Shown here: positions 1 through 57,777 of the stretch, in pieces | Layout: every line of letters begins with the position of its first letter | How positions within the stretch are numbered: position 1 is the stretch's first letter | Virus record (IMG/VR): IMGVR_UViG_3300010354_000095 | Span: 1-60,505 of that record | Reading direction: 5' to 3' (one strand) | Length of the DNA stretch: 60,505 nucleotides | Origin: a virus | Notes under the pieces: generated by a model | Told to the model about the DNA's origin: nothing | Seen by the model: only the letters and a program-made list of their open reading frames with translations | Databases searched by the model: none | Translations under genes and position numbers: made by a program

Positions 1-931
1 AGCAAGCTCAAACAAACCAGAAATTTCAACTACTAGCGACAGTTTGTCAATAACAACCGCAGAAGGAGTCCTCGGCGGATGGCGTCCGATAATTCATCTG
101 CAAAATGGCGACAATGCTGGTCCTGGCGATTTTGGTGCTGGCCAGCCATTGATTACACTAGTAGGCAATACACTTATTTCATCAGGCAGAAATCACAGTC
201 TAAGATTTCACACTGGATCGCCCGGCAGTTCAGGTTACCTGGGCGATGTCTACGATGATGGCCGAATTTATTACGACAACGATACTTTTACTTTGAAAAT
301 TGTTGGTAATGTTCAAATAGTTTCTAATATTGCAGGAAATATTGATGCTAATTTGACCGTTGGTAATATCAAAGCCGATGCTTATTTTTACAGCAATGGA
401 ACAGCATTTGTAGGTGGCAGCGGCAGTGTCGGTTATACCGGATCGGCTGGAACTACAGGATACGATGGTAGTGTGGGTGCTACTGGATATGCTGGCTCAG
501 TCGGTGCTACTGGATACGCCGGTTCAATTGGAAGCACAGGATTTACTGGATCAGTGGGTGTAGGATACACCGGCAGTGCCGGAACCGGAAGCAGCGGCGG
601 AGGCTCTTTAGTTAAAACATTAGACTATGTTGGAAGTTTAGTTGTCAACAACGGTACTAAAAAATGGTGGATAAACAACACCTACACAATAAGTAGATTA
701 GTGGGCTTTGTGGATGTGGCACCTACCGGAGCTAATGTAGAAATTAGAGTCAATAAAAATGGTAGCAGTGCTACTACATTTACTATTCCCACTAACACAA
801 GTAGAGCTAATGCTAATATAAGTATTAGCACAGTTGAGGGCGATTATATAACTGTCGATATAACACAGGTTGGAAGTACTGTGGCCGGCAGCGATTTATC
901 TTTGGTATTTGAATATTCCAGACCAGTATAA
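1..931 (+). CDS. Collagen-like tail fibre protein, 5' end outside the window
   Basis: The reading frame is open from base 2, so the first TTG at 44 is not the real start and the gene enters from the left. The visible part has a beta-rich region, then a short collagen-like stretch at about 421-600 built on Gly-Tyr-Thr-Gly-Ser and Gly-Ala-Thr-Gly-Tyr units, a Gly/Ser linker, and a C-terminal domain of about 105 residues that looks like a beta-sandwich. Phage proteins of this build are fibres or fibre tips that contact the host surface. A similar collagen-like gene runs off the right end of the window. The family is clear, but the exact fibre is not. Confidence 0.75.
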   Translation, partial: ASSNKPEISTTSDSLSITTAEGVLGGWRPIIHLQNGDNAGPGDFGAGQPLITLVGNTLISSGRNHSLRFHTGSPGSSGYLGDVYDDGRIYYDNDTFTLKIVGNVQIVSNIAGNIDANLTVGNIKADAYFYSNGTAFVGGSGSVGYTGSAGTTGYDGSVGATGYAGSVGATGYAGSIGSTGFTGSVGVGYTGSAGTGSSGGGSLVKTLDYVGSLVVNNGTKKWWINNTYTISRLVGFVDVAPTGANVEIRVNKNGSSATTFTIPTNTSRANANISISTVEGDYITVDITQVGSTVAGSDLSLVFEYSRPV

Positions 932-3184: not shown

Positions 3185-3187
3185 AAC

Positions 3188-35378: not shown

Positions 35379-35382
35379 AATT

Positions 35383-36006: not shown

Positions 36007-36836
36007 TGAACACAAAAGATATTACAATTTTAGCAGTTGACACTTATGCACATAAATTAACTCGTCGTGCTATAGAAATAACTTTAAGTCAAATACCCTG
36101 TCGAGAAGTCTTGGTACTTAGTGATCAAAATATCTATCCCGACGGTCGATGGATTGATATTAATCCTATTGATATCGTCGATTATAATGATATTATGGTT
36201 AAGCATCTATGGCCCTTTGTACGAACCGATCATGTGTTAGTGATACAATATGATGGTATTGCAACCAACGGTCAATATTGGTCTGATGATTTTTTAAATT
36301 ACGATTATATCGGTGCTATTTGGCCTTGGCCACATCATCGACCAGGATTCCGAGTCGGTAATGGTGGATTCAGTTTACGAAGTCGCCGCCTTCTAACAGC
36401 ACTCAAAGATAAAAAAATAGTTCTTAAACACGATCTTCCTATGTATGAAGATTTGTACATCGGGATACACTATAAAGAACAATTGACTAATATGGGCATT
36501 AAAATTGCCGACGAACCGATTGCTCTAAAATTTAGTCATGAACATTACCCGGGACGAAAAGAAACATTTGGATTCCATGGGTCCTTTAATTTTCCTTACT
36601 ATTTAAACGATCATGATCTTGAATTCTTTGTACGAAATCTTCCTGGGTGGACTAGCGAAGGGGCGCAATTATTGATTGCACATCTTTTTGTTAAAGAAAA
36701 AACCGATCTAGGAAATTTTGCATTAGATTTAGCTAGAAAAAGTGTAGCAAATTTTGATGCACATTTTAAAGGTATGGCAGCAAGAGTTGGAATACAAACC
36801 GGTAATCCGTCTCTTTTAAGTAAAATTTACAAATAA
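36006..36836 (+). CDS. DUF5672-type glycosyltransferase
   Basis: A 276-residue protein with features of DUF5672, a GT-A-like family: Val-Ile-Gln-Tyr-Asp-Gly near 79, Trp-Ser-Asp-Asp-Phe-Leu-x-Tyr-Asp-Tyr-Ile-Gly-Ala near 90, Trp-Pro near 103, and Val-Gly-Asn-Gly-Gly-Phe-Ser-Leu-Arg-Ser near 117. The last motif is a hallmark of the family. It is likely to transfer a sugar in the cytoplasm; donor unknown. The C-terminal 60 residues are helical. The next gene follows after 3 bases. Confidence 0.75.
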   Translation: MNTKDITILAVDTYAHKLTRRAIEITLSQIPCREVLVLSDQNIYPDGRWIDINPIDIVDYNDIMVKHLWPFVRTDHVLVIQYDGIATNGQYWSDDFLNYDYIGAIWPWPHHRPGFRVGNGGFSLRSRRLLTALKDKKIVLKHDLPMYEDLYIGIHYKEQLTNMGIKIADEPIALKFSHEHYPGRKETFGFHGSFNFPYYLNDHDLEFFVRNLPGWTSEGAQLLIAHLFVKEKTDLGNFALDLARKSVANFDAHFKGMAARVGIQTGNPSLLSKIYK

Positions 36837-36839
36837 ATC

Positions 36840-37721
36840 ATGAGACCAAATATTTTAATTAATCGACAATCTTCTGGTGGGGATGTCTTAATGACAACCC
36901 CTATTGTTAGAAAACTTTATCAAGATCATAATGGCGATTGTGATATTGATTTTTTCGTTATACAACAATGTAAAGAATATATTGAAAATAATCCCTATAT
37001 TAGAAAAGTTTATACTGGACTTCCTAGTCAAGAAGATAAAAAGAGATATACCCGAGTAATTGATCTTGATTTAGTTTACGAAAGATCACCTCTTATTCAT
37101 GCAGTAGATGCTTATGCACTTGAAGTATTTGGTCATGCCGATTTTGATCGAAGTCTTGACTTATATTCAACAAACGAAGATAAAATTCGTGTAGATCAAT
37201 TGACCAGTACCATTGGTAATTTTGTTGTTTTACACCAAAGAAGATACCCGTGGCCTAGTAGGAATATCCCGGAAAAGTTTTGGAGAGGTGTAGTAAAAAA
37301 ACTTTTAGACAAAACTGATTTATATATTGTGCAAATTGGGGGGCCAAGCGAACCAGCGTTTAACGGACACGATCGTTTAATAGATGCTCGGGGTTCGTTT
37401 TCTATTCCGCAACTTAAAGAAGTTATTGCTCAATCAAAACTTTATATGGGTGTTGACTCCGGTCCGGCCCATGTGGCTAGTACAACCGAAACCGATATGC
37501 TAGTATTATACACCAGTGTCAAGGAAGAATATCGACGGCCATTGAGATCAAAAGGTCAATTCTTTCCTATCGCAGCCGATATCGAATGCTATGGTTGTCA
37601 TGCAAAAAATCCTACACCGTGCACAACTTTTATTTGTCATCGTGGCGACATTGAATGTGTAAATAGATTTAATTCTGATCAGGTAGGAGATCAAGTGCTC
37701 GATCTATTAGGAACTAGTTAA
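36840..37721 (+). CDS. GT9 family (ADP-heptose:LPS heptosyltransferase type)
   Basis: A 293-residue GT-B enzyme of family GT9. Evidence: N-terminal Ser-Ser-Gly-Gly-Asp-Val-Leu-Met-Thr-Thr-Pro-Ile near 11, and the C-terminal donor-site region Tyr-Met-Gly-Val-Asp-Ser-Gly-Pro-Ala-His-Val-Ala-Ser-Thr near 201, followed by the Tyr-Thr-Ser-Val segment. GT9 members such as WaaC and WaaF move heptose from ADP-heptose to LPS inner core. The window also holds NDP-heptose-type genes at 8509-10265, so donor and transferase may be phage-made. Several cysteines near the end (Cys-Tyr-Gly-Cys...Cys) could bind metal. Overlaps the next gene by one base. Confidence 0.85.
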   Translation: MRPNILINRQSSGGDVLMTTPIVRKLYQDHNGDCDIDFFVIQQCKEYIENNPYIRKVYTGLPSQEDKKRYTRVIDLDLVYERSPLIHAVDAYALEVFGHADFDRSLDLYSTNEDKIRVDQLTSTIGNFVVLHQRRYPWPSRNIPEKFWRGVVKKLLDKTDLYIVQIGGPSEPAFNGHDRLIDARGSFSIPQLKEVIAQSKLYMGVDSGPAHVASTTETDMLVLYTSVKEEYRRPLRSKGQFFPIAADIECYGCHAKNPTPCTTFICHRGDIECVNRFNSDQVGDQVLDLLGTS

Positions 37722-38509
37722 TGAAATATGTTAATGATAAAAAATGGGAAGAACTTAATGCACAATTCGTTAACGGTCAACCATTTAATTATGTAATTAT
37801 CGACGATTTCTTTACTAGCGAAGTCTTGGAAAAATTAGTTTTTGAATTCCCCAAAAACTACAATGATCCAATTTGGAATGCACAATACAACAATGCTATT
37901 GAAAATAAAAAGGCATGTAATAGTTGGGATGCTTTTCCACCTATGACTTATCAGGTATTCAGTTACCTATGTAGTGCAGAATTTGAAAATATCGTAGAAA
38001 AAATTAGCGGTAATAACCCAGTATTTGCTGATATCGGTTTACATGGCGGCGGATGGCATAGTCATAGTACTAGCGGTAAATTGAATATACATCTAGATTA
38101 TAGTATACATCCTAAATTAAATTTACAACGGCATTACAATTTAATTGTTTATATTACTCCAGACTGGCAAACTAATTGGGGCGGCGGACTGGAATTTTGG
38201 AGTCACGATTCGGAAACAAATCAACCCAAAGAATGTATAACAGTAATTGAAAATCGTTTTAACCGTGCAGTGTTTTTTGATACAACACAGCATAGTTGGC
38301 ATGGTTTGCCTGAAAATTTAAATTGTCCACAAGGTGTCATGCGCCAAAGTTTGGCAATTTATTATTTGACAGATCCAGGAAAAAATATAGATACAAGAAG
38401 TAAAGCTCTTTATGCACCTTATAAAGATCAAAAAAATGATCCAGATATTATAAAACTTATCGAGATGAGGTCACAGTTAAGTACCGCCAGTAAAGTTTAT
38501 AGAACATAA
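37721..38509 (+). CDS. 2-oxoglutarate/Fe(II)-dependent oxygenase
   Basis: A 262-residue oxygenase of the prolyl 4-hydroxylase-like type. Iron ligands are His124-x-Asp126 and a distal His (His194 in Ser-Trp-His-Gly), with Arg208 as 2-oxoglutarate anchor; Trp-Gly-Gly-Gly-Leu-Glu-Phe-Trp at 153-160 marks the beta core. Family members hydroxylate proteins, sugars or small molecules. Between a GT9 enzyme and a GT4 enzyme it most likely hydroxylates a sugar or an acceptor side chain that is then glycosylated. Its gene starts on the last base of the GT9 stop and ends 1 base before the next start. Confidence 0.85.
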
Positions 38510-38510
38510 A

Positions 38511-39647
38511 ATGAAATTTCATATTTTAGGACTACCCCATACAGTCACCAATAAATTATACAATGCTTGTGCCTATACCCAGAAGGTATGGAAATTTGGC
38601 AAAATGATGAAAGCTAGAGGGCACGAAATTATTCACTACGGGCATCCAGACAGTGATGTTATTTGTGATGAGCATGTTAATGTTATTGGAAATAATGATT
38701 TAGCTATAGCCTACGGAAACTACGATTGGAGAAAAAACTTTTTTAAGTTTGATATGAATGATCATGCCTATCAAACTTTTTATAGAAATGCAATCGATGA
38801 AATCAGTAAAAGAAAAACTAAAAACGACTTTTTGTTACCGTTTTGGGGATATGGACATAAACCAATCTGTGACGCACATAACGATATGATCGTAGTTGAG
38901 CCCGGTATTGGGTATGCCGGTGGGCACTTTGCAAGATTTAAAATATTTGAAAGCTATGCCATTTACCATGCATACTATGGATTAGATGCTGTCGGGAAAT
39001 GTAAGCAAGATTGGTATGATGTAGTTATACCAAATTATTTTGATGTTGATGATTTCGAATATGCTCCTGACAAAAAAGAAGATTATTTTTTATTTGTTGG
39101 TCGGGTATATGATGGCAAAGGAGTAAACATTGCTATACAAACTACAGAACATATTGGTGCTAGATTAAAAATTGCTGGCCAAGGTAGTTTACAGGATATG
39201 GGTTATAAAACTGTACCTTCACATGTAGAGTTCGTAGGATATGCAGATATCGAAACAAGAAAACAATTAATGAGTCGGGCCCGCGCCGCTTTTGTTCCGA
39301 GTATGTATGTTGAACCTTTTGGAGGGGTTCAAATCGAAATGCTTATGTCGGGTACTCCTACTATTAGCACTGATTGGGGTTCTTTCACAGAAAACAATAT
39401 TACCGGGTTGACTGGATATCGATGTCGTACTTTTGAGCAGTTTGTCTGGGCAGCAAAAAATATCGATCAAATTAAGCCCGAAAACTGTAGAAATTGGGCA
39501 ATACAAAATTTCAGTTTAGAACGAGTGGCTCAAATGTATGAAGAATATTTTCAGGATGTGTTAAACATTTATACTGGAAACGGTTGGTACGAACCAAACC
39601 CCACTAGACAAAACCTAACTTTTACCAGTAAAATATTTCCTACATGA
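38511..39647 (+). CDS. GT4-type glycosyltransferase
   Basis: A 378-residue GT-B enzyme. The C-terminal half has [12 protein letters not shown] near 194, Phe-Val-Gly-Tyr near 237, and the donor-binding Glu-Pro-Phe-Gly-Gly-Val-Gln-Ile-Glu (E-x7-E) near 266 followed by Thr-Asp-Trp-Gly-Ser near 287. The N-terminal half has the acceptor domain with His-Gly-His-Glu. It is similar in type to the N-terminal domain of the giant protein at 4448. Role: adds one sugar to the same unknown glycan. Confidence 0.85.
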
Positions 39648-44859: not shown

Positions 44860-46320
44860 ATGAAAGAATGCACATTAGAAATAAATGACGAAGTTAATGT
44901 TAAGATCAAAGGGCTAGAACTTGTTGATCGTAAAGAATTAGTTAATCGTTATAAATTTGAAATTCCTGGAGCAAGATATTTGCCAGTGGTTCGCCTTGGT
45001 CGATGGGATGGCAAGGTCAGTTTTTTTCAGCTCAGTGGCAGTACCTATATTAATTTACTACCTGAAATTTTAGTCTATCTGACAGATAGAGGTTATGATA
45101 TTAGTGTTAACGATAGTAGATCATATCGAACTCAATTTGAATTTGATCATATAGTTGAAAATACATTTGAACATTTATCGTGGCCAAAAGGGCACCCTAT
45201 AGCTGGTCAGCCAATCGTACTGAGAGATTATCAAGTTGATGTAGTAAACAAGTTTTTAGAAAATCCTCAATGTATCCAAGAAGTAGCTACAGGTGCAGGT
45301 AAAACTGTAATGACCGCGGCTTTAAGTTATTCAATTAGTAAATATGGTCGTAGTATTGTTATTGTCCCAAACAAAAGTTTGGTTACTCAAACCGAAAAAG
45401 ACTTTGTTAATATGCAACTAGATGTCGGTGTTTATTTTGGTGATCGTAAGGAGATTGGTCGAGCACATACCATTTGTACTTGGCAAAGTTTGAACAATTT
45501 AATGAAGAACACCAAAAATCACGAAGCAGAAATTACTATTCAAGAATTTCTCGAAGATGTTGTTTGTGTAATTGTTGACGAAGTACATATGGCTAAAGCC
45601 GATGCACTTAAAACATTATTAACTGGGCCAATGGCACATATTCCGATTCGTTGGGGATTGACCGGGACAGTACCAAAAGAAAAATATGAATTTATGTCTT
45701 TATTTTGTAGTATCGGTCAAGTTATAGGAAAGCTAAGTGCCAGTGAATTACAAGACCAAGGGGTACTGGCTCAATGCCATGTAAACATTAGACAGTTAGT
45801 TGATCATGCCGAATACAGCAACTATCAAACAGAATTAAAATATCTACTCGAATCAGATAAAAGATTAGATCACATTGCTGATATGATTCTAAAAATTAAA
45901 GAAACCGGTAACACTTTGATCCTAATCGACAGAGTTGCTGCCGGTCAAGAATTAGTCAAGAGATTGGGTGATCGTGCAGTATTTGTTTCAGGAGCAACTA
46001 AAGGAACAAAACGACAAGAGCATTACGATGAAGTGGCCGAGTCAAGTGACAAGATTATTGTAGCGACCTATGGTGTTGCAGCAGTAGGTATTAATATACC
46101 AAGAATTTTTAATTTAATTTTGTTAGAGCCCGGAAAAAGTTTTGTTAGGGTCATACAAAGTATCGGAAGAGGTATTAGGAAAGCCGAAGACAAAGATTTT
46201 GTGCAAATTTGGGATATAACTAGTACCTGTAAATTTGCTAAAAGACATCTAACACAAAGAAAGAATTTTTACAAAGAGGCTAATTACCCCTTTACTCTCG
46301 AAAAGGTAGAATATTTATAA
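44860..46320 (+). CDS. uvsW: UvsW helicase
   Basis: A 486-residue superfamily 2 helicase. The N-terminal 100 residues form the UvsW-specific domain (Val-Val-Arg-Leu-Gly-Arg-Trp-Asp-Gly-Lys near 43). Motifs: Leu-Arg-Asp-Tyr-Gln near 121 (Q-like), Ala-Thr-Gly-Ala-Gly-Lys-Thr at 143-149, Asp-Glu-Val-His near 239, Gly-Leu-Thr-Gly-Thr near 267, Gln-Ser-Ile-Gly-Arg-Gly-Ile-Arg near 434. UvsW unwinds R-loops and branch-migrates recombination intermediates, and in T4 it helps switch replication from origins to recombination. Length equals the family norm (T4: 587 with extension). Ends on the first base of the next ATG. Confidence 0.92.
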   Translation: MKECTLEINDEVNVKIKGLELVDRKELVNRYKFEIPGARYLPVVRLGRWDGKVSFFQLSGSTYINLLPEILVYLTDRGYDISVNDSRSYRTQFEFDHIVENTFEHLSWPKGHPIAGQPIVLRDYQVDVVNKFLENPQCIQEVATGAGKTVMTAALSYSISKYGRSIVIVPNKSLVTQTEKDFVNMQLDVGVYFGDRKEIGRAHTICTWQSLNNLMKNTKNHEAEITIQEFLEDVVCVIVDEVHMAKADALKTLLTGPMAHIPIRWGLTGTVPKEKYEFMSLFCSIGQVIGKLSASELQDQGVLAQCHVNIRQLVDHAEYSNYQTELKYLLESDKRLDHIADMILKIKETGNTLILIDRVAAGQELVKRLGDRAVFVSGATKGTKRQEHYDEVAESSDKIIVATYGVAAVGINIPRIFNLILLEPGKSFVRVIQSIGRGIRKAEDKDFVQIWDITSTCKFAKRHLTQRKNFYKEANYPFTLEKVEYL

Positions 46321-46829
46321 TGTCAAGAATTTTGAATTTAGATACAAATAAAGCATTTGATATGAATGAGATCCCAGATGAAATAGATAATCTGCGATTT
46401 TGTGTTTTAGATAATTCGGATCCTAAAAATCCTGATTATTTTTTTATACCGTTAATTTTTCTAGAAAGTTTTAATAGTCCGGCACTGGTATTAAAAATTG
46501 GTAAATGGACTATTAAAATGCCAGTAGATTGGCAATTATTAATCGGAGAGCCAGATCTTGGTGACTTAGAAGTAGTACCTTTAACTAGTATCAACGATCG
46601 AGGATTTAGTGCTTTTTGTTTTAATCCGATTAGTAGTTTCAAACCTGAGTTTCATTTAGTTGAAATCGTTGACATATATCAAGATGTCAAATGGTATTTT
46701 CCAAAGTTAAAGCCTGGGCAAATGCTGGCAGTGCCAGTAGACTCGGATAATGAAAAACCGTTATGTGTTTTTTTCGTCAAAGAAATTAGTAGAGTAAGTG
46801 AAGTAATTGACTTTAGTAAAGCCTGGTAG
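46320..46829 (+). CDS. Conserved hypothetical after UvsW
   Basis: A 169-residue beta-rich protein. Segments: Asp-Tyr-Phe-Phe-Ile-Pro-Leu-Ile-Phe-Leu-Glu-Ser near 38, Lys-Ile-Gly-Lys-Trp-Thr-Ile-Lys-Met-Pro near 59, Leu-Leu-Ile-Gly-Glu near 72, Pro-Leu-Thr-Ser-Ile-Asn-Asp-Arg near 86, and Met-Leu-Ala-Val-Pro-Val near 134. These read as a conserved phage family of unknown function adjacent to replication genes. No cysteine cluster or P-loop. Coupled to uvsW by a one-base overlap. Confidence 0.65.
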   Translation: MSRILNLDTNKAFDMNEIPDEIDNLRFCVLDNSDPKNPDYFFIPLIFLESFNSPALVLKIGKWTIKMPVDWQLLIGEPDLGDLEVVPLTSINDRGFSAFCFNPISSFKPEFHLVEIVDIYQDVKWYFPKLKPGQMLAVPVDSDNEKPLCVFFVKEISRVSEVIDFSKAW

Positions 46830-46841
46830 TAATATTACATT

Positions 46842-47297
46842 ATGAGCAATTTAGATATTGGCACCGAGATGAGAGCTTTTGATTCGAAGAATCGAAAGTT
46901 TTACGATAACTTAACACCCGAAGAAAAGAAAAAGTTTAGTACTTTTCTTATGCTCAAATGGGGATGCAATGTTGAGGGCAGTCAAGAATTACAGGAATGG
47001 TATTTAAGGGTACACAACGACAGGGTTAATGTTAACTTTTTTGACTTAGGAAGACATCCAAAACTTCAGTGGTTGTTATGTACTACAGTAAGTCCTAATT
47101 TAGGAAACAAAAGGCACTATTGGCTTAAAACAAAAAAACAGGAAAGTCGAGGTAGTTACAAGTTTATCGAATCACAATTTCCTAATCTAAGTCACGAAGA
47201 AATTGAGCTAATGTTGGAATTAAATAGTGTTAACGATTTAAAAGAATTTGCCGAACAATTGGGTTGGGACGATAAAAAAATTAAGTCGGAGTTATGA
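46842..47297 (+). CDS. 62: Sliding-clamp loader small subunit gp62-like
   Basis: A 151-residue protein. It aligns by pattern with T4 gp62: Phe-Ser-Thr-Phe-Leu-Met-Leu-Lys-Trp near 33 (T4 Tyr-Ser-Lys-Phe-Met), His-Asn-Asp...Phe-Phe-Asp-Leu near 57-68, His-Pro-Lys-Leu-Gln-Trp-Leu-Leu-Cys near 71, and a Trp-Leu-Lys-Thr-Lys segment near 93, then helical repeats. gp62 with gp44 loads the gp45 clamp onto DNA. Neither gp44 nor gp45 is in the window, so context gives limited support. Overlaps the next gene by 4 bases. Confidence 0.5.
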   Translation: MSNLDIGTEMRAFDSKNRKFYDNLTPEEKKKFSTFLMLKWGCNVEGSQELQEWYLRVHNDRVNVNFFDLGRHPKLQWLLCTTVSPNLGNKRHYWLKTKKQESRGSYKFIESQFPNLSHEEIELMLELNSVNDLKEFAEQLGWDDKKIKSEL

Positions 47298-48022
47298 TTT
47301 CTCAATTACTAGATAAACAAATTTTTGATGTGAAAGAAAAATACACTTGCCGATTTTGCAATCATTCGTTTGCAAAAGAAATTACTTTAACGAGCCATTT
47401 GTGCGAAAAAAAGCGAAGACATCAACAGGAAAAAGAAATAGGAGTTCAATGGGGGTTACAAGCCTATTTGTTATTTTATAGCAGTACTCAATTAGCTACT
47501 AAAAATAAAAAAACTTATCAAGATTTTACCGAAACACCATACTATACTGCCTTTGTTAAATTTGGTAGATATTGTGTAGATATCAAATGTATTAATTTTT
47601 TGTCTTTCACTAATTGGTTATTAAAAAATAATAAAGGTATTGATCATTGGTGTTCGGATAAATTATATGAAGAATGGTTAACAGATTATCTTCGTAAAGA
47701 AGCAGTGCAGGATGCGTTAGAAAGATCTTTTAAAACAATGACAGATTACTCTAACAACCACACTGAACTAAAAAATGGATATACTGATTATTTTAGATAT
47801 GGTAATGTTAATAGAATATTACACAGTATCTCAAATGGAAAGATAAGCCCTTGGGTAATATTTAATTGTAAATCCGGTATTGAGTTTATCGAAAATCTCA
47901 CTGAAGATCAACTAGGAATGATAATGTCTTGGATTGACCCAGAATATTGGAATAGTAAGTTTCGTGATAGTCATGAAGATGTGCAATGGACCAGAAAGAT
48001 TTTAGAAACAGCCGGATTGTAA
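47294..48022 (+). CDS. Zinc-finger protein of replication region
   Basis: A 242-residue protein with an N-terminal zinc finger: Cys19-x2-Cys22-x12-His35 followed by Cys37 and His43 as possible fourth ligand, then a basic Lys-Lys-Arg-Arg run. The rest is helical with many aromatic residues (Trp near 54, 108, 119, 128, 186 and 213). I recognise the C2H2-like start from cyanophage-type T4 relatives. A DNA-binding role in replication or late gene switching is plausible, not shown. Its 3' end overlaps the Pol III alpha-like gene by 37 bases. Confidence 0.65.
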   Translation: MISQLLDKQIFDVKEKYTCRFCNHSFAKEITLTSHLCEKKRRHQQEKEIGVQWGLQAYLLFYSSTQLATKNKKTYQDFTETPYYTAFVKFGRYCVDIKCINFLSFTNWLLKNNKGIDHWCSDKLYEEWLTDYLRKEAVQDALERSFKTMTDYSNNHTELKNGYTDYFRYGNVNRILHSISNGKISPWVIFNCKSGIEFIENLTEDQLGMIMSWIDPEYWNSKFRDSHEDVQWTRKILETAGL

Positions 48023-48609
48023 AATTTACCAGTGATGTCGATATAGACTTCGCCGACCGACAGCAGATTTTAAATTTGATACCGCATATCGGTGCCTCGA
48101 TTTTAAATGACAAAGGTGAATTTGTTCCCCATAATACCGGGGTGCACATTACTCAAATTCCTCACGACTCTATTAAAAATAGAGCCACAATTGATTATAA
48201 ATTAGCTGAAAAAAGGGGATATATCAAATTAGATTTTCTTAATGTAGGACTATACCAAAAGATTGAAAATTCCGATCATTTGCAGGAATTAATGAATCGA
48301 GAACCGCCGTGGCACAAATTATATGATCCGAATTTTTGTAGTCAGTTGATGCATATTGGGAATCATTATGATACTTTAATTAAAATGCCCGAAGCAGTTA
48401 ATACTATTTTAAAATTAGCTATGTTTTTAGCTATTATACGACCTGCCAAGCGGCATCTAATTGGTTTACCTTGGAATGAAGTAGCTAGTACAGTATGGGA
48501 TAAACCCACTGATGATAGTTATTATTTTAAGAAGAGTCATAGTATTAGTTATGCTCATCTTGTAGTTGTGAATATGAATTTAGCTGATCTTGCGGACCAA
48601 AGTAATTGA
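47986..48609 (+). CDS. Mini-protein with DNA polymerase III alpha catalytic motifs
   Basis: A 207-residue protein whose ordered motifs match the C-family polymerase core: Asp19-Ile-Asp21-Phe (PDxDxDF of Pol III alpha), Thr-Gly-Val-His at 51-54 (GVHAAG), Gly-Tyr-Ile-Lys-Leu-Asp83-Phe-Leu at 78-85 (KFDFLGL, third catalytic Asp), Leu-Ala-x-x-Arg152-Pro153 (ALxRPGP) and Lys183-Ser-His-Ser-x-x-Tyr-Ala at 183-190 (NKSHAxxYA). The three catalytic aspartates are kept although the protein is about one fifth of the usual 1100+ residues, with no PHP domain, no exonuclease and shortened fingers. Role unknown: remnant, clamp-associated factor or minimal enzyme. ATG 47986 is the only start upstream of the first motif. 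Confidence 0.75.
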   Translation: MDQKDFRNSRIVKFTSDVDIDFADRQQILNLIPHIGASILNDKGEFVPHNTGVHITQIPHDSIKNRATIDYKLAEKRGYIKLDFLNVGLYQKIENSDHLQELMNREPPWHKLYDPNFCSQLMHIGNHYDTLIKMPEAVNTILKLAMFLAIIRPAKRHLIGLPWNEVASTVWDKPTDDSYYFKKSHSISYAHLVVVNMNLADLADQSN

Positions 48610-48951
48610 TCTTCTTTTACTTCGTTTAGCAGCCATTTCTTTAAGATTGATATGTGGGCCCATACGGATATCAACATCTTTACTGTTTAGTGTTTTAACA
48701 CAGAATTTAAATTCTATCCATTCGTGTTTTAAGAAAACATTTATGGGTATAATTCTATTACTTTCCCACCACCATTGTTCGCCTAGTTCCAGGAACCTCT
48801 TTTTCTGTTCCGGAATTCTTAGACTGCCATAATCGTAAATTGTGGTAATCTGTTCATCTGAGTTTTGTATAATTCCCAGATACTCGTTACCGCCATAAAC
48901 CAGGTATGTTATAAAAGGGTACCTGTTAAGTAACTGTTCTATTTCTTCCAC
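48580..48951 (-). CDS. Conserved T4-like hypothetical
   Basis: A 123-residue protein on the minus strand. Recognised features of a family common in marine T4-like phages: Tyr-Pro-Phe-Ile-Thr-Tyr-Leu-Val-Tyr-Gly-Gly-Asn-Glu-Tyr near 11, Gly-Ile-Ile-Gln-Asn near 26, Trp-Trp-Trp-Glu-Ser-Asn-Arg near 60, Pro-Ile-Asn-Val-Phe-Leu-Lys near 69, and a basic C-terminus Lys-Arg-Ser-Lys-Arg-Arg-Ser-Ile-Thr-Leu-Val. Function unknown; the aromatic beta-rich body suggests a binding protein. It is convergent with the Pol III alpha-like gene (30-base overlap) and divergent from the fibre block. Confidence 0.75.
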   Translation of the reverse strand: MEEIEQLLNRYPFITYLVYGGNEYLGIIQNSDEQITTIYDYGSLRIPEQKKRFLELGEQWWWESNRIIPINVFLKHEWIEFKFCVKTLNSKDVDIRMGPHINLKEMAAKRSKRRSITLVRKIS

Positions 48952-48970: not shown

Positions 48971-49471
48971 ATGATAACAATCTATTTATATCCGATTACA
49001 GTAGAGGTTCGAATTTGGGATCCTACGATTTTTACTACAAGGAACAGAGAAATGTATGCTAGGCCCGTAACGATTTATCAAGGTATTGATAATAATATAC
49101 AGGTTCGTGTACGAAACCAAGATCAAAAATCGGTAAATATGAATGGGTATATTCTTCAGGCCGACATACAGGATCCTGTAAATTATTTAACTGTAGGGAG
49201 TTTTGCAGTCTTGTTTAGTAATACTTCATCGGGTTTTGGTTCGTTTACGATCGGTAAAGATCTAGTCAACCAATTGGATCAACGAATATACAAATTAACA
49301 TTTAAAGCAATTCGAATAGATACTAACTCTGAAAGACCGGCCTATATGGACGATAATTATAATATCCCTATAGATTTAGTGGTGAGACCCGGTTACTATA
49401 ATGAAATGGGTATCCAGGGCGAAGAAGACCAAGACGATTTCTTAATAATTGACGGTGGGAATGGACAATGA
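48971..49471 (+). CDS. Small baseplate/fibre-associated protein, BppU-like
   Basis: A 166-residue beta-rich protein. ATG 48971 is chosen over a TTG at 48953, which lies upstream of the predicted transcription start. Residues about 25-135 resemble the N-terminal beta-sandwich of BppU-type baseplate proteins: Gln-Gly-Ile-Asp-Asn-Asn-Ile-Gln-Val-Arg-Val near 39, Gly-Tyr-Ile-Leu-Gln-Ala-Asp-Ile near 59, and Tyr-Lys-Leu-Thr-Phe-Lys-Ala near 106. A very acidic tail follows. It overlaps the giant fibre gene by 4 bases and is probably its attachment partner at the baseplate. Confidence 0.6.
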   Translation: MITIYLYPITVEVRIWDPTIFTTRNREMYARPVTIYQGIDNNIQVRVRNQDQKSVNMNGYILQADIQDPVNYLTVGSFAVLFSNTSSGFGSFTIGKDLVNQLDQRIYKLTFKAIRIDTNSERPAYMDDNYNIPIDLVVRPGYYNEMGIQGEEDQDDFLIIDGGNGQ

Positions 49472-52400
49472 CTATTGATAGCCAAGTAATAAATCTAAAC
49501 GCGAGACAAATTCTGCTCAAACGCGGAAACGGTCTCATTATGAGTACCTATGTTGGTCCATTAGGCGAAATAACCTTAGATACGACATTAAATACTCTTC
49601 GAATCCAGGACGGTGAAACTCCTGGGGGTATCGTAATCCCAACTCAATCAAATGTTGTAGTTGAGGTCGCTCAGGCTATTGAAGAAATTGCCGACACAAC
49701 GGTACAAAATTCTATCACTAATGCTTTAATACCGGTTAATGCAAATATTATTGCAGCCAATGCTGCAATAGCGTCTTTGCTTACAACTATTAGTTCATTT
49801 ACTGCTAATGCTCCAGGAAATTTAAATACTTTTGCTGAGATTGCTGCCGCAATCGGAAATGATCCAAATTATTCTTCAAATGTTTTCATATCAATAAGCA
49901 ATACTCAAGCTAATATTAATATTGAAAAGACTCGTGCATTAGCAGCAGAAACACTATTAAGAAATGATTTAGATGCCGAAGTGGCTTCTCGTTTAGCAGC
50001 CGAAGATGCTTTAAGAGATGACATCGAGTACATCTTATCAAATCAACTTAGTTTACCTGCAGAAATCAGTGCTCGTCAGGCCGGCGATGCAGCTTTGCAA
50101 ACAAATATTACTGCCGAAGTCAATGCCAGAACTTCAGCCGATCAACAAATTCAAGCAAATATATCTTTAGAAAAAATTGCTAGAGAAGCCGTCGATTCGT
50201 TAATTTTAACTATTCTTACTAATGAGTCTAACACTAGAGCTAGTGGACTTGCTGGCCTGCAGGCTAATTTGGTTGTTGAAAGTTTGAACAGATCGAATGC
50301 TGACAATAATTTGCAAGCACAAATTAATAGTATTCTTAATAATACTAATCCGGCAGCGTTAGATAGTTTAACCGAAATCGTAGCAGCATTCCAAAGTTCC
50401 GATAGCAATGTTTTATCTACAGCGTATACCTTAAGTACTTTAGCTAATACTAGAATATTAGCTGAAGAAACAGCAAGAATTAATGCCGACACGGTATTAC
50501 AAAATAATATTAATACAGAAGCAACGACTCGAGCCAATGCTGATTCTCAATTACAAGCTAACATTAATGTTGTACAAAACAATCTTAATAACGAAGCTAA
50601 TATTCGTTTAGCAGCCGATACTGCTTTACAAGGTAATATTAATGCTGAAGCTAGTACTCGTTTAGCAGCCGACACTACTTTACAAAATAATATTAATGCC
50701 GAAGCAAGTACTCGTGCAACAAATGATAATATTTTACAAGCCAATATTGATGTTGAAACTGCTGCTAGAATCTCAGCCGACACTACTTTACAAAATAATA
50801 TTAACACGGAAGCAAGTACTCGTGCAACAAATGATAATATTTTACAAGCCAATATTAATGTTGAAACTGCTGCTAGAATCTCAGCTGACACTACTTTACA
50901 AAATAATATTAATGCTGAAGCAAGCACTCGTTCAACGGCCGATACTACTTTACAAAATAATATTAATACCGAAGCTAATACAAGAGAAGTTAATGATTTA
51001 GCACTTTCGAATGCAATTGTTGCTAATATTACTGCCGAACAAATAGCTAGAACTCTTGCTTTAAATTCACTTCATACTTTACTTGATAGTAACATTGCTA
51101 CTGAAAGAGCAGAGCGTATTTCTAGTGACAATAATTTACAACAGCAAATTAACAATGTTATTATTAATACAGATCCGATCGCTCTAAATAGTTTGGCAGA
51201 AATCGTTGTAGCATTCCAGTCTGCAGATTCGAATCTAATCGGTGCAGTTAATTCTATAGCTACTGGTGTAACAAATACTGTTAATGTACTAAGAGACGAA
51301 GTTGAAGTAATACAAACTGCAATTATTGCCGAAATTGAAAGAGCCATTTATGTTGATGATGCAATTGAAGCAAATTTAAATGCAGAAATTTCTAATAGAA
51401 TTGCTGCTGACAATATTTTACAAACTAATATTAATAATGAAGCATCAATAAGACTTAACGAAGATCTTTCATTACAAGCTAATATTGTAGCTGAGCGGAC
51501 AGCTCGTATTGCCGAAGACCTGTCACTACAGGCCAATATCGTAGCCGAACAAACAGCTCGAATTCAAGCAGTTACCAGTGAAGCAGCTACCCGTCTTGCT
51601 GAGGACTTGTCACTACAGGCTAATATTGTATCTGAACAGACAGCTCGAATTCAAGCAGTTAGTAGCGAAGCGGCTACTCGTCTTGCTGAAGATCTATCAC
51701 TACAGGCCAATATCGTAGCTGAACAGACAGCTCGTATTGCTGAAGATCTATCACTACAGGCCAATATTGTAGCTGAACAAACAGCTCGTATTGCTGAGGA
51801 CTTATCGTTACAAGCTAATATTAACTCGGAAGAAAATCTTAGAATTATTAATGATCAGCTAATTCAAAGCAATCTCACTGCTGAAACTGCTGCAAGAATT
51901 TCTAATGATCAAATACTACAAAGTAATATTGATATCGAAACTTTGAATCGAATCTCTTCTGATAATACATTACAATCTAATATCGATGCAGAAGAAGCAG
52001 CTCGAATTCAAGCAGTTAGTAGCGAGGCGGCCACCCGTCTTGCCGAGGACCTGTCATTACAGGCCAATATCGTAGCTGAACAAACAGCTCGTATTGCTGA
52101 GGACCTGTCACTACAGGCCAATATCGTAGCAGAAGAAACAGCTCGAATTCAAGCAGTTACCAGTGAAGCAGCTACCCGTCTTGCTGAGGACTTGTCATTA
52201 CAAGCCAATATTACAGCAGAGGAAACGGCTCGAATTCAAGCAGTTAGTAGCGAGGCGGCCACCCGTCTTGCTGAGGACTTGTCGTTACAAGCCAATATTA
52301 CAGCAGAGGAAACGGCTCGAATTCAAGCGATTAGCAGCGAAGCAGCTACCCGTCTTGCTGAGGACTTGTCGTTACAGGCTAATATTGCAGCAGAGGAAGC

Positions 52401-55400
52401 GGCTCGAATTCAAGCGATTAGCAGCGAAGCGGCTACTCGTCTTGCCGAAGACCTATCACTACAGGCCAATATCGTAGCAGAAGAAACAGCTCGAATCCAA
52501 GCGGTCAGTAATGAAGCATCTGCTCGTCTTGCCGAGGACTTGTCATTGCAAGCCAATATTGTAGCTGAACAGACAGCTCGTATTGCCGAAGACTTGTCAT
52601 TGCAGTCTAACATAGCAACAGAAGAAGCGGCACGAATACAAGCGGTCAGTAATGAAGCATCTACTCGTCTTGCCGAGGATTTGTCATTGCAAGCCAATAT
52701 TGTAGCTGAACAGACAGCTCGTATTGCCGAGGACTTGTCATTGCAAGCCAATATTGTAGCCGAGCAGACTGCTCGTATTGCTGAGGACTTGTCATTACAA
52801 GGAAATATTGTAGCTGAACAGACAGCTCGTATTGCCGAAGACTTGTCATTGCAGTCTAATATTAATAATTTGAATCAAAGTTTGGCGGTAATTGCTAAAA
52901 CTGGATCACATACCGATTTAGTCGATTTTCCGGTATTTTATAGCGATGCCAATACATTAATTGGTTATACTTATCTAAACAATAATTTAGGAAGTAATAG
53001 TATTGGTAATCTCTTTATTTTAGGTAATATTGATAATTTTGATAAAAGTATTACTACACAATATGTCAGAAGTCATAGTACCACCGATTTAGTTTTATCA
53101 CCCGGGGCCGGTAGACAAACTGTAAGTTACGGAAACCTTGTACCTCAATTCAGTAATAGTTATAACCTTGGAACTCCAACTGATTATTGGTCGAACATTT
53201 ACGGAAATAATTTAGTAGCAGCCGGAAATGTTGATGTTTACATGAACTTAAATGTAAATGGTAAAGTATTAGCTAAAGAGTTTGGAAATATTTTACCAAT
53301 CGATGATAATACTCAATATCTTGGTAGTGAAATTAAGAGATGGCACTCGTTGTATGTTGGTCCAGGTAGTATAGATATCGATGGGGTAATTATCGGTTCG
53401 AGTAATGACGGAAAAATTCTTATTTCTGAAGTTAACAATCCACCAAAAGAAATCGCATTTTCGATCGATTTATCGGCTGAAATAAATGCTCGTACTCAAG
53501 CAATCAACGATGAAGCTAATTCTAGAATTGATAGTGATACTCTGTTACAGGCTAATATCGATATAGAAGAAGCAGCTCGAATTCAAGCAGATAGTAGTGA
53601 AGCAGCCGCCCGTCTTGCCGAAGACTTATCATTGCAAGCCAACATTATAGCTGAACAGACAGCTCGTATTGCCGAGGATCTATCACTACAGGCCAACATT
53701 GTAGCTGAACAGACAGCTCGTCTTGCCGAGGACTTGTCATTGCAAGGAAACATTGTAGCTGAACAGACAGCTCGTCTTGCCGAGGACTTGTCATTGCAAG
53801 GAAACATTGTAGCTGAACAGACAGCTCGAATCCAAGCAGTTAGCAGCGAGGCGGCCACCCGTCTTGCTGAGGACTTGTCGTTACAGGCTAATATTGCAGC
53901 AGAGGAAGCGGCTCGAATTCAAGCAGTTAGCAGCGAAGCATCCGCTCGTCTTACTGAGGATCTTTCGTTGCAGGCTAATATCATATCTGAACAAACAGCT
54001 CGAATTCAAGCAGTTAGTAGCGAAGCGGCTACTCGTCTTGCTGAGGACTTATCGCTACAGGCCAATATTGTAGCTGAACAAACAGCTCGTATGCAAGCTA
54101 TTAGTGATGAAATGAGTTCAAGAGTTTCGTTTGATCTTATTTTACAGGCTAATATCGATGCAGAGGAAGCAGCTCGAATCCAAGCAGTTAGTAGTGAAGC
54201 AGCTACTCGTCTTGCCGAAGACTTATCGCTACAAGCCAATATCGATGCAGAGGAAGCAGCTCGAATCCAAGCAGTTAGCAGTGAAGCAGCTACTCGTCTT
54301 GCCGAGGATTTGTCATTGCAGGCTAATATTGCAGCGGAAACAAGTGCAAGAATATCATCAAATTTAACTATTGCTGGAATAATAACTAATTTAGACAGTG
54401 CAGTTAATACCAGAATAGAATCTGCTGTTGGTAGTTCATTTATTACAATTTCTGGAATGATCGAAGACGAGGCAGACGCCAGAGAATTAGCGATCGATAC
54501 AGCCATAGCGACAGAGCAACTGGCTAGACAACAAGCAGATAATAGTTTACAAAGTCAGATTAATAATATTATTACTAATATTGATCCGGTAGCACTAGAT
54601 AGCTTGACAGAAATTGTTGCAGCATTTCAATCAGAAGATAGCGATTTATTAGCAACATTAAACAATTTAAGTAGTAGTTCTTCTTCAAATTTATCAGTTG
54701 AAATTAATAGAGCTATTTCTGCAGAACAAGCATTACAAGCCAATATTGATATTGAAGAAACCGCTCGTATTGCTGAGGACCTGTCATTACAGGCCAATAT
54801 CGTAGCTGAACAAACAGCTCGTATTGCTGAGGACCTGTCATTACAGGCTAATATTATAGCTGAACAAACAGCTCGTGTTGCTGAGGATTTGTCACTACAA
54901 TCTAATATCGTAGCTGAACAAACAGCTCGAATCCAAGCGGTCAGTAATGAAGCATCTACTCGTCTTGCCGAGGACTTGTCATTGCAAGCCAATATCGTAG
55001 CTGAACAAACAGCTCGAATCCAAGCGGTCAGTAATGAAGCATCTACTCGTCTTGCCGAGGACTTGTCATTGCAAGCCAATATCGTAGCTGAACAGACAGC
55101 TCGAATTCAAGCAGTCAGTAATGAAGCAACTACCCGTATTGCCGAGGACTTGTCATTACAAGCCAATATCGTAGCTGAACAAACAGCTCGTATTGCTGAG
55201 GACCTGTCATTACAGGCTAATATCGATATAGAAGAAGCAGCTCGAATTCAAGCAGTTAGCAGCGAAGCAACTACCCGTCTTGCTGAGGATTTATCATTAC
55301 AAGGAAACATTGTAGCTGAACAGACAGCTCGTATTGCTGAGGACCTGTCATTACAGGCCAATATCGTAGCTGAACAAACAGCTCGTATTGCCGAAGACTT

Positions 55401-57777
55401 GTCATTGCAAGGAAACATTGTAGCTGAACAGACAGCTCGTCTTGCTGAGGATTTGTCATTACAAGGAAACATTGTAGCAGAGCAAACAGCTCGTATTGCT
55501 GAGGACTTGTCATTACAAGCTAATATTACAGCAGAGCAAACAGCTCGTATTGCTGAGGACTTGTCATTACAAGCTAATATTACAGCAGAGCAAACAGCTC
55601 GTATTGCCGAGGACTTATCATTGCAAGCTAATATTACAGCAGAGCAAACAGCTCGTATTGCCGAGGACTTGTCATTACAAGGAAATATTGTAGCTGAACA
55701 GACAGCTCGTATTGCTGAGGACTTGTCATTACAAGGAAATATTGTAGCTGAACAGACAGCTCGTGTTGCTGAAGACTTGTCATTGCAAGCCAATATTGTA
55801 GCTGAACAGACAGCTCGTGTTGCTGAAGACTTGTCATTGCAAGCCAATATTGTAGCTGAACAGACAGCTCGTATTGCTGAGGACTTGTCATTACAAGGAA
55901 ATATTAATTTATTATCAGATAGTCTAGCCAATATTGCTTTCGACGGATTATTAGATATTCTCGACACAAACAATTTAACCAATATTTTTTATCCGACATT
56001 TGTTGAGAATAGAACTGTCAGTCAATATGTAAGAGCAGATGTTGATCTTACATATAGATCGGATACCAATACTTTAAGCACAGGTAATATTTCGGTATCT
56101 AATAAAGTTGAAACTAATTCCTTGGTGGTTAATACTGGTATAAATTCGAGTTTGGCAGCTACAATTAGTGGATTTAGCTCGATATCTGCACAATACTTTT
56201 TGGGCGACGGCGGTAATATTTCTAATGTTCAGCTTGGAAATATCTCCGGAATTGGCAATATTTCATCTATCAATTTAGATGGTAATATTAGTAATGCTTT
56301 ATTAGGTAATGGCACTTGGGGTCCTGTTGATGCAGGTATTCCTAATAGAATCGAGAATGGAACATCAAATATTTCGATTCCTGCAGCCGGTGCTAATGCT
56401 ACCGTTAATATAAACAATTTGACTTGGACCTTTGACAGCACTGGCAATATAAATTTACCCGGTGGCGGGATCGTTGTTGGATCTGATTATGAAATTGGTC
56501 TTATTGCCGGTAGTGACGGTATGGCTATAGCTGGTACTGTAAACATAGCCACTATCAATCCTGCTATAGGACAATCTTTCTCATGGCAGTTTAACTCCTT
56601 GGGCGAATTAGAGCTGCCGCAGGGCGGTTTGATCAAAGAAGGTAATGGTCCATTTGGTAGCAGTATCACTTTAGAACCAGCTAATATCACAGATGGTGAT
56701 CAGGTGCTGCTAGTATATCCTACAGCAGCCGAAGGTAATCATCTGCACCTAACCACAGGCAATCTTTACAACACTGAACTATACCTAGGCAGTGACAACT
56801 ACTATGTAAAGTTGTCCAACAGCGGGTCTATCCTACTTAATGCCAACGATAATAATGGTTCTCAAGCCACTTGGGAATTTATGCCTCTTGGCAATTTAAG
56901 ACTCCCCCAAGGAGGTGTAATTAGCGAAGTATCAAATCCTAGTGGTTTCCCAGGATATGCTCTATCCTTTACCCCAGATCCTGTCAATGCCATCAACCCC
57001 AATCAGCAATTACTGGTTTATCCCACTGGCGGCGTAGACTTCAATCACCTGCATCTAACTTCGGGCGATTTGTATGACACAGAACTGTTCCTGGGCAACG
57101 ACAATCTTCATGTCAAGTTGGCCAACACCGGCGATGTGGAAATTCGCACTGATGACAACGCAGGCAATGTTGCACTATGGAGATTTGGCACAGACGGTGT
57201 ATTAACATTCCCTAGCAACGGGAATATTATTTTTGATAATAGTGCTAGCAGTTCTATCGACGGTATTACTAGCATAGTTTATGCCGATGATACAGTTCAA
57301 ACTACAGCCTGGGCGGGTAATATTGATCGAATTGAAAGTGGTTCGGCAAATGTTGTTGTTTCTAGTACCGGGGTAGTAAGTTTACCGGCTGTAGGTAATA
57401 GCCAAGTTACAATTTCTGGTGCAACTAAAACGGTTAATGGTAATCCATACTCGGTTAGAAGTTCTTATAGCAACGAATTTGAAATTTGGAAGGCCAGCAA
57501 CGATGATGTAATTGCAGCCAAAATTACTATAAGATTACATAATGACTATTATACCTATACTGAATTATTTGATGTTTTAATGGTTAAGGAGGCAACTAAT
57601 AATGCCAATGTTAGCTTTAGTATAGGACCGAGAATTAAATCAAACGATTCGTATCCTGACGGTGTTGTGGATGTGAGATTAAGCGATGGTAACAAATTAA
57701 CTTTATATTATACAAGTGTACAGGGCGATGCAAGCTTCTATACATTTGATGCTGTTGAGTTTAGAAAAACTGTTTAA
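49468..57777 (+). CDS. Giant coiled-coil long tail fibre, 2769 residues
   Basis: N-terminus about 12-58 is an Mtd-N-like baseplate-attachment domain (Ile-Leu-Leu-Lys-Arg-Gly-Asn...Leu-Arg-Ile-Gln-Asp-Gly). Then alternate coiled-coil tracts and small domains. A Pro-x-x-Leu-Asp-Ser-Leu-Thr-Glu-Ile-Val-Ala-Ala-Phe knob appears near 295, 570 and 1707. Coiled-coil arrays at about 660-1130, 1365-1625 and 1750-2146 repeat an 18-residue unit, sometimes extended to 29. A beta-rich region at about 1134-1335 interrupts. The C-terminus (2150-2769) is beta-rich with a duplicated module (2374-2583). It is likely a trimeric fibre that reaches the receptor. Overlaps the previous gene by 4 bases. Confidence 0.85.
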   Translation: MTIDSQVINLNARQILLKRGNGLIMSTYVGPLGEITLDTTLNTLRIQDGETPGGIVIPTQSNVVVEVAQAIEEIADTTVQNSITNALIPVNANIIAANAAIASLLTTISSFTANAPGNLNTFAEIAAAIGNDPNYSSNVFISISNTQANINIEKTRALAAETLLRNDLDAEVASRLAAEDALRDDIEYILSNQLSLPAEISARQAGDAALQTNITAEVNARTSADQQIQANISLEKIAREAVDSLILTILTNESNTRASGLAGLQANLVVESLNRSNADNNLQAQINSILNNTNPAALDSLTEIVAAFQSSDSNVLSTAYTLSTLANTRILAEETARINADTVLQNNINTEATTRANADSQLQANINVVQNNLNNEANIRLAADTALQGNINAEASTRLAADTTLQNNINAEASTRATNDNILQANIDVETAARISADTTLQNNINTEASTRATNDNILQANINVETAARISADTTLQNNINAEASTRSTADTTLQNNINTEANTREVNDLALSNAIVANITAEQIARTLALNSLHTLLDSNIATERAERISSDNNLQQQINNVIINTDPIALNSLAEIVVAFQSADSNLIGAVNSIATGVTNTVNVLRDEVEVIQTAIIAEIERAIYVDDAIEANLNAEISNRIAADNILQTNINNEASIRLNEDLSLQANIVAERTARIAEDLSLQANIVAEQTARIQAVTSEAATRLAEDLSLQANIVSEQTARIQAVSSEAATRLAEDLSLQANIVAEQTARIAEDLSLQANIVAEQTARIAEDLSLQANINSEENLRIINDQLIQSNLTAETAARISNDQILQSNIDIETLNRISSDNTLQSNIDAEEAARIQAVSSEAATRLAEDLSLQANIVAEQTARIAEDLSLQANIVAEETARIQAVTSEAATRLAEDLSLQANITAEETARIQAVSSEAATRLAEDLSLQANITAEETARIQAISSEAATRLAEDLSLQANIAAEEAARIQAISSEAATRLAEDLSLQANIVAEETARIQAVSNEASARLAEDLSLQANIVAEQTARIAEDLSLQSNIATEEAARIQAVSNEASTRLAEDLSLQANIVAEQTARIAEDLSLQANIVAEQTARIAEDLSLQGNIVAEQTARIAEDLSLQSNINNLNQSLAVIAKTGSHTDLVDFPVFYSDANTLIGYTYLNNNLGSNSIGNLFILGNIDNFDKSITTQYVRSHSTTDLVLSPGAGRQTVSYGNLVPQFSNSYNLGTPTDYWSNIYGNNLVAAGNVDVYMNLNVNGKVLAKEFGNILPIDDNTQYLGSEIKRWHSLYVGPGSIDIDGVIIGSSNDGKILISEVNNPPKEIAFSIDLSAEINARTQAINDEANSRIDSDTLLQANIDIEEAARIQADSSEAAARLAEDLSLQANIIAEQTARIAEDLSLQANIVAEQTARLAEDLSLQGNIVAEQTARLAEDLSLQGNIVAEQTARIQAVSSEAATRLAEDLSLQANIAAEEAARIQAVSSEASARLTEDLSLQANIISEQTARIQAVSSEAATRLAEDLSLQANIVAEQTARMQAISDEMSSRVSFDLILQANIDAEEAARIQAVSSEAATRLAEDLSLQANIDAEEAARIQAVSSEAATRLAEDLSLQANIAAETSARISSNLTIAGIITNLDSAVNTRIESAVGSSFITISGMIEDEADARELAIDTAIATEQLARQQADNSLQSQINNIITNIDPVALDSLTEIVAAFQSEDSDLLATLNNLSSSSSSNLSVEINRAISAEQALQANIDIEETARIAEDLSLQANIVAEQTARIAEDLSLQANIIAEQTARVAEDLSLQSNIVAEQTARIQAVSNEASTRLAEDLSLQANIVAEQTARIQAVSNEASTRLAEDLSLQANIVAEQTARIQAVSNEATTRIAEDLSLQANIVAEQTARIAEDLSLQANIDIEEAARIQAVSSEATTRLAEDLSLQGNIVAEQTARIAEDLSLQANIVAEQTARIAEDLSLQGNIVAEQTARLAEDLSLQGNIVAEQTARIAEDLSLQANITAEQTARIAEDLSLQANITAEQTARIAEDLSLQANITAEQTARIAEDLSLQGNIVAEQTARIAEDLSLQGNIVAEQTARVAEDLSLQANIVAEQTARVAEDLSLQANIVAEQTARIAEDLSLQGNINLLSDSLANIAFDGLLDILDTNNLTNIFYPTFVENRTVSQYVRADVDLTYRSDTNTLSTGNISVSNKVETNSLVVNTGINSSLAATISGFSSISAQYFLGDGGNISNVQLGNISGIGNISSINLDGNISNALLGNGTWGPVDAGIPNRIENGTSNISIPAAGANATVNINNLTWTFDSTGNINLPGGGIVVGSDYEIGLIAGSDGMAIAGTVNIATINPAIGQSFSWQFNSLGELELPQGGLIKEGNGPFGSSITLEPANITDGDQVLLVYPTAAEGNHLHLTTGNLYNTELYLGSDNYYVKLSNSGSILLNANDNNGSQATWEFMPLGNLRLPQGGVISEVSNPSGFPGYALSFTPDPVNAINPNQQLLVYPTGGVDFNHLHLTSGDLYDTELFLGNDNLHVKLANTGDVEIRTDDNAGNVALWRFGTDGVLTFPSNGNIIFDNSASSSIDGITSIVYADDTVQTTAWAGNIDRIESGSANVVVSSTGVVSLPAVGNSQVTISGATKTVNGNPYSVRSSYSNEFEIWKASNDDVIAAKITIRLHNDYYTYTELFDVLMVKEATNNANVSFSIGPRIKSNDSYPDGVVDVRLSDGNKLTLYYTSVQGDASFYTFDAVEFRKTV
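51450..52866 (+). repeat. Fibre coiled-coil repeat array 1
   Basis: Direct repeats of 54 and 87 bases coding the 18-residue unit AEDLSLQANIVAEQTARI, with an optional 11-residue insert beginning Gln-Ala-Val-Ser-Ser-Glu. Copies differ mostly at third codon positions. Confidence 0.9.
53560..54345 (+). repeat. Fibre coiled-coil repeat array 2
   Basis: Same 54/87-base unit family as array 1; the longer unit with the 11-residue insert is more frequent here. Ends before a Pro-x-x-Leu-Asp-Ser knob domain. Confidence 0.88.
54720..55905 (+). repeat. Fibre coiled-coil repeat array 3
   Basis: Same unit family; the right two-thirds (from about 55290) is an almost uninterrupted run of 54-base units, the most homogeneous part of the fibre gene. 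Confidence 0.9.

Follow-up and report, generated by a model that had tools for sequence, protein, structure and literature searches.

The gene analysed here lies in a 60-kb fragment of the genome of an uncultivated phage, and we refer to the whole 60,505-nt stretch that was analysed as the window. A preliminary description of this DNA had placed the gene in a T4-like recombination and replication block beside uvsW, and this held, the T4-like set of gp32, UvsX, UvsY and UvsW genes all being present in the window. The genes to which the text refers are:

29807-30829, plus strand: gp32-type single-strand DNA-binding protein (phrog_1192)
30887-31954, plus strand: UvsX/RecA recombinase (PF00154)
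32179-32631, plus strand: UvsY-like recombination mediator (phrog_231)
44860-46320, plus strand: UvsW-type DNA helicase, in the same block as the C half
46320-46829, plus strand: conserved gene between uvsW and the C2H2 gene (phrog_11279)
46842-47297, plus strand: conserved gene (phrog_11758)
47294-48022, plus strand: C2H2-type zinc-finger-like protein of 242 aa, the upstream overlapping gene (phrog_11058)
47986-48609, plus strand: C-terminal half (C half) of a split minimal Pol III alpha, 207 aa (phrog_11778, E 4.7e-59), consisting of the metal-binding part of the palm and rudimentary fingers according to profile alignment, structural match and conservation
48580-48951, minus strand: convergent conserved gene downstream of the C half (phrog_11637)

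The 207-aa open-reading frame is intact, with an ATG at 47986 and a TGA/TAA-type stop ending at 48609, and it overlaps the upstream open-reading frame (47294-48022) by 37 nt. The gp32/UvsX/UvsY genes are separated from the UvsW block by a plus-strand gene cluster (34656-39647) with one methyltransferase-like gene and others apparently sugar- or surface-related; at this spot phage CBB has a DnaQ-type exonuclease with uvsW directly next to it. Beyond the block, a single plus-strand frame of 2769 aa (49468-57777) is built from repeats of about 20-35 residues (EDLSLQANIVAEQTARIA...) and is probably a tail-fibre-type protein, past which low-complexity reverse-strand frames run to the window end and may represent a second repeat gene.

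Single-sequence queries of Pfam and NCBIfam gave nothing useful for the C half, and phmmer against PDB gave no match; a Glyoxalase_2 match (E 0.065) was rejected as it falls short of that family's own cut-off. The PHROG 11778 family ('DNA polymerase') matches the protein along 187 residues, and tblastn located the C half in 63 phage records, all at ≥80% coverage and <60% identity, and in 166 viral-contig stretches. In hhalign, the family profile scored 51.9 with a profile built from ten DnaE sequences of E. coli, plasmid and phage origin, compared with at most 29.4 in 30 column shuffles and 18.1 for the reversed profile. The piece with this score joins C-half residues 45-154 to DnaE 507-641, and a second, collinear piece covers the K-S-H-S region (score 45.5). 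A low-diversity alignment (A1) had reached a probability of only 4% against one DnaE, a weak result that was overcome by using the broader alignment. The profile comparison thus upholds the catalytic-core homology and the DnaE order of motifs proposed in the preliminary description, and indicates that this order is not due to chance. The 207-aa protein constitutes the C-terminal half of the palm of a C-family polymerase (Pol III alpha/DnaE/PolC), and it has the catalytic Asp triad and the palm motif order of that family. The residues concerned are encoded as follows:

48034-48048, plus strand: DVDID, Asp17/Asp19/Asp21, corresponding to E. coli DnaE D401/D403/D405 and invariant (n = 98)
48130-48141, plus strand: His49-x-x-Gly52, corresponding to DnaE H511AGG514
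48226-48234, plus strand: Lys81-x-Asp83, corresponding to DnaE K553-x-D555, with the third catalytic Asp
48439-48444, plus strand: Arg152-Pro153, corresponding to DnaE R639-P640
48529-48552, plus strand: Lys182-Lys-Ser-His185-x-x-x-Tyr189, corresponding to DnaE NKSHSxAY (757-764)

SDVDIDF aligns with DnaE PDFDVDF, therefore the catalytic pair is Asp17/Asp19 and the third residue Asp83. Three catalytic aspartates had been recognised from the start, but numbered Asp19, Asp21 and Asp83; Asp21 is the equivalent of D405, itself invariant. The structural match to PolC begins at model residue 17, which falls on chain residue 972, and D972/D974 are catalytic residues of PolC (PMC12592400). The KxDF, RP and K-S/A-H-x-x-x-Y motifs had been read correctly. 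A proposed 'GVH' motif had not: 97% of relatives have Tyr in place of its histidine (His54), and the conserved element is His49-x-x-Gly52. Asp17, Asp19, Asp21, His49, Gly52, Lys81, Asp83, Arg152, Pro153 and Lys155 are unchanged in 98 of 98 sequences, and His185 and Tyr189 are conserved in all 97 in which they are present. Compared with the nearest relative, pS is 0.84 (synonymous sites saturated) and pN 0.15, values which, together with the unchanged catalytic residues, point to strong purifying selection on the C half, as had been proposed. One C-half copy elsewhere (G012, 8469-9041) carries a single in-frame TAA inside the matched stretch, which could be an assembly error, a pseudogene or an end-of-gene artefact.

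An AlphaFold2 model of the C half built with 49 natural sequences (pLDDT 88.5) was compared with known structures, as the preliminary description had suggested. The best eight Foldseek matches were all Pol III alpha, with weak E-values (0.02), and in VIA-align only Pol III alpha/PolC chains exceeded Z 5, unrelated rows lying at about Z 3 and lower. Matches included 5lew (Z 8.9, 194 residues aligned), 4iqj (Z 8.3), 3f2b (PolC, Z 7.7) and 2hqa (E. coli, Z 7.1, range 403..779); overall they cover E. coli ~398-784, the model aligning along the entire Pol III alpha palm/fingers path. The rmsd is large (6.4-7.2 Å over 173-194 residues), which may reflect rearranged fingers in the modelled structure. 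Glyoxalase and fosfomycin-protein rows, at about Z 3 and over residues 1-88 only, were read as a small beta-alpha coincidence.

Two pieces of DnaE are missing from the C half: the first is about 75 aa between DxDxDF and HAGG, the second the fingers between RPGP and NKSHS (E. coli about 643-732), including YGIILYQEQ and LRRAMGKK. The LRRAMGKK segment of the fingers (E. coli DnaE 708-715) contacts the dNTP and is without counterpart in the C half. The protein begins 16 aa ahead of the DxDxD motif and contains no PHP domain, and its match stops at E. coli ~784, so that the clamp-binding and OB regions are not in it; the absence of PHP, OB and beta-binding parts and of most fingers had been correctly recognised, and both profile alignment and structural match agree with it. 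The GPGRGS nucleotide-binding part is not in this chain either, the model aligning only from E. coli ~398 on, and no frame with a GxGRGS motif occurs anywhere in the 60-kb window. A search of 12 genomes with PF17657 for a third gene that might supply these fingers returned almost only the C half itself, with no other gene scoring above threshold.

The missing GRGS (NTP-binding) half of the palm is a gene of its own (the N half, ~170 aa) in every relative searched in full, usually within the clamp-loader block and 11-280 kb from the C-half gene. The idea of a free-standing, pared-down replicase was therefore not sustained. In CBB the C-half homologue is gp287 (216 aa) and the N half gp328 (172 aa), 34 kb apart, and gp328 ends ...GLGRGSSVSSYCLYLIGLHLVDSIKYELDVNEFLKW, a match to DnaE. 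PF07733 exceeded its gathering score in four divergent N-half members (profile positions 19-95 of 260), and hhalign placed the N half on E. coli DnaE residues 317-393 with a probability of 96%, or 84% with a different alignment. Its AlphaFold2 model (pLDDT 90.7) gave strong structural matches to Pol III alpha/PolC alone, with Z up to 12.6, over E. coli 279-395 and PolC 824-966. The stretches of DnaE covered by the two models therefore adjoin (E. coli 279-395 and ~398-784), and in PolC the C-half match starts at 966 or 972, where the N-half match stops. The cut in the polypeptide falls between FLN (E. coli ~395) and the DxDxDF strand (401). The window contained neither an N half nor a family-B polymerase, absences that are uninformative in a 60-kb fragment; because the window is a fragment, we infer the N-half partner of its phage from relatives.

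Such a cut could also mark a split intein that joins the halves after translation into one chain. DnaE split inteins are known in cyanobacteria, and this phage group has split inteins too, with a putative example reported in the family-B polymerase of MIJ3 (PMC6892783). The junction leaves no room for one, however, as the N halves that were read end at or within a few residues of FLN/FLK and the C halves begin 5-20 residues ahead of DxDxDF, and we regard protein splicing here as very improbable.

Both halves were found in 11 of 11 named phages searched whole (Phosso, CBB, Paride, CM1, Slickus01, RaK2, Atu_ph07, Vibrio 2.275.O, SCTP-2, XacN1 and XaC1) and in all nine metagenomic contigs >200 kb, two of which had been found via the C half and seven via the N half. 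Contigs without a second half were all <200 kb and may be fragments. The two genes lay as little as about 11 kb apart (Slickus01) and as much as about 280 kb (in a 462-kb contig). With E. coli DnaE as the query, only the N half was found in 12 relative genomes, 11 of which encode a family-B polymerase; in three phages with an intact DnaE the N-half match sits inside a frame of 1050-1187 aa. N and C distance matrices were correlated across 16 pairs (r = 0.85, 0 of 5000 permutations), which fits joint inheritance and is no proof of contact, as shared descent alone may explain it. The Alishewanella phages Slicko01 and Slickus01 (OQ508956/OQ508957, 141 kb) both carry the C half, and Slickus01 carries both halves; as these genomes fall below the jumbo size limit, the split family is not confined to jumbo phages. 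A 56%-identical C half also occurs at 2705-3325 of JAFMJX010000205.1, a 3.5-kb contig binned as a Chitinophagaceae MAG and probably a phage contig in a bacterial bin.

These data bear on whether the C half is a decaying remnant of a captured host dnaE, a reading close to the structural remnant offered in the preliminary description. Two large deletions relative to DnaE speak for such a remnant, yet the excess of synonymous change (pS 0.84 vs pN 0.15), a length and architecture constant in >80 loci and 63 phage records, and the retention of the halves together in all well-covered genomes make decay scarcely credible.

The surroundings of the two genes are also conserved. Among 80 C-half loci, phrog_11058 (C2H2-type) lies directly upstream in 70 and the convergent phrog_11637 directly downstream in 70, and uvsW homologues (53), primase (19) and DnaB (14) are found where the contig reaches far enough. 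The C2H2 protein is thus a candidate partner of the C half, and as a neighbour it appears unremarked, since Iyer et al. (PMC7824862) use neither the term C2H2 nor zinc finger. Neighbourhood and sizes had also suggested that the C half and its C2H2 neighbour might be assembly proteins of a T4 baseplate hub, a reading rejected for want of any family match in its favour. On the N-half side, a homologue of the CBB clamp-loader gene lies ≤5 kb from the N half in 65 of 80 N-half loci. This proximity, and the small size of the proteins, would suit a catalytically dead scaffold or a decoy that binds the host clamp loader, as had been suggested, or the family-B replicase. A pure scaffold would not need the metal and palm residues, which are nevertheless invariant over very divergent members, and the clamp-, tau- and OB-binding regions of DnaE, of which a decoy for the clamp loader would be made, are the very ones absent from the C half, so we consider this role quite improbable.

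We conclude that the product of the gene is very probably the metal-binding, C-terminal subunit of a minimal C-family DNA polymerase core whose two subunits come from two genes. In the proposed working, an N subunit with the GRGS motif would be encoded by a distant gene, in related T4-like large phages usually beside the clamp-loader ATPase, and would assemble non-covalently with the C subunit as a heterodimer. The heterodimer is predicted to rebuild a single two-metal nucleotidyltransferase palm active site, in which GRGS of the N subunit would hold the dNTP phosphates, Asp17/Asp19/Asp83 of the C subunit would hold the two metals, and the C half would also hold the 3′ end. Alongside the family-B replicase, the pair may then serve in limited nucleotidyl-transfer tasks, for example gap filling, repair or the hand-off of primers. 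With the LRRAMGKK fingers segment and the clamp-binding, OB and PHP parts missing, it is unlikely to sustain replication, and even catalysis by the pair is not assured because LRRAMGKK and about 75 aa between DxDxDF and HAGG are without counterpart.

Lacking LRRAMGKK and the processivity parts of DnaE, the pair makes a poor candidate for a main replicase, and there is scope for non-templated activity. The two-subunit core might accordingly be a nucleotidyltransferase other than a template-directed DNA polymerase, engaged in untemplated addition, protein or RNA modification, or pyrophosphorolysis (the reverse reaction). The palm keeps its catalytic residues while the fingers segment and the thumb-side and duplex-binding domains are missing, as such an enzyme would allow, and the Pol III alpha palm has a pol-beta-type nucleotidyltransferase fold (PMC7824862). 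We nonetheless think this somewhat unlikely, given the replication and recombination context of both genes (the C half lying in a uvsW-primase-DnaB block, the N half in a clamp-loader block) and the retention of the K-S/A-H motif. For the full claim we see about an even chance. It holds that two small proteins encoded by unlinked genes together form, in trans, the one active site of a C-family polymerase that is active alongside a family-B replicase and has no PHP, clamp-binding or full fingers part, possibly with the phrog_11058 protein as a third subunit.

If the pair is active, it would be the smallest working C-family polymerase core, with an active site assembled from two chains, and such a trans-built enzyme would give a possible picture of the ancestral core. 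It would then bear on the proposal that the phage versions resemble the ancestral C-family enzyme (PMC7824862), and on the question of what makes large T4-like phages, the P. aeruginosa phage Paride among them, retain another type of polymerase in addition to a family-B replicase. Both half genes are short, and their products could be made and tested directly.

Parts of this system have been described before. Buttimer et al. 2017 (PMC5259590) called CBB_328, which is the N half, a 'truncated' Pol III alpha and left the other half unreported; CBB gp287, which belongs to the PHROG 11778 family and is 37% identical to the window protein, was deposited as a putative membrane protein. The same paper describes, in Rak2-like phages, a second, short large-terminase-like gene adjoining the full one (gp274/gp275 in CBB, NC_041878). 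Iyer et al. 2021 (PMC7824862) predicted from genome comparisons that 'group 2.2' jumbo phages encode a minimal Pol III alpha in two pieces, so the split is not new, the same conclusion having been given there. In the literature searched, including that after PMC7824862, we found no experimental test of a split Pol III alpha. Our additions are the residue mapping, confident models for each of the halves, whose ranges abut, the constant C2H2 neighbour, the wide environmental co-occurrence and the occurrence in 141-kb Alishewanella phages.

Set beside bacterial Pol III alpha (DnaE1/DnaE2 and PolC; PF07733, PF17657), the C half has a common palm fold and, in the same order, the DxDxD, HAGG-like, K-x-D, RP and K-S/A-H-x-x-x-Y elements. 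It differs in that the PHP domain, most of the fingers and the tandem HhH/beta-binding and OB parts are absent, in that the GRGS half is not part of the chain, and in measuring about 200 aa vs about 1000-1200. Its closest counterpart is the split Pol III alpha of Iyer et al. (PMC7824862), with which it shares a small C-terminal Mg2+-binding protein and a T4-like replication set; the group 2.2 phages have a separate, distant NTP-binding N-terminal gene and a family-B replicase in the same genome, whereas the member described here comes from an uncultivated phage represented by a 60-kb fragment, its partner being predicted from relatives.
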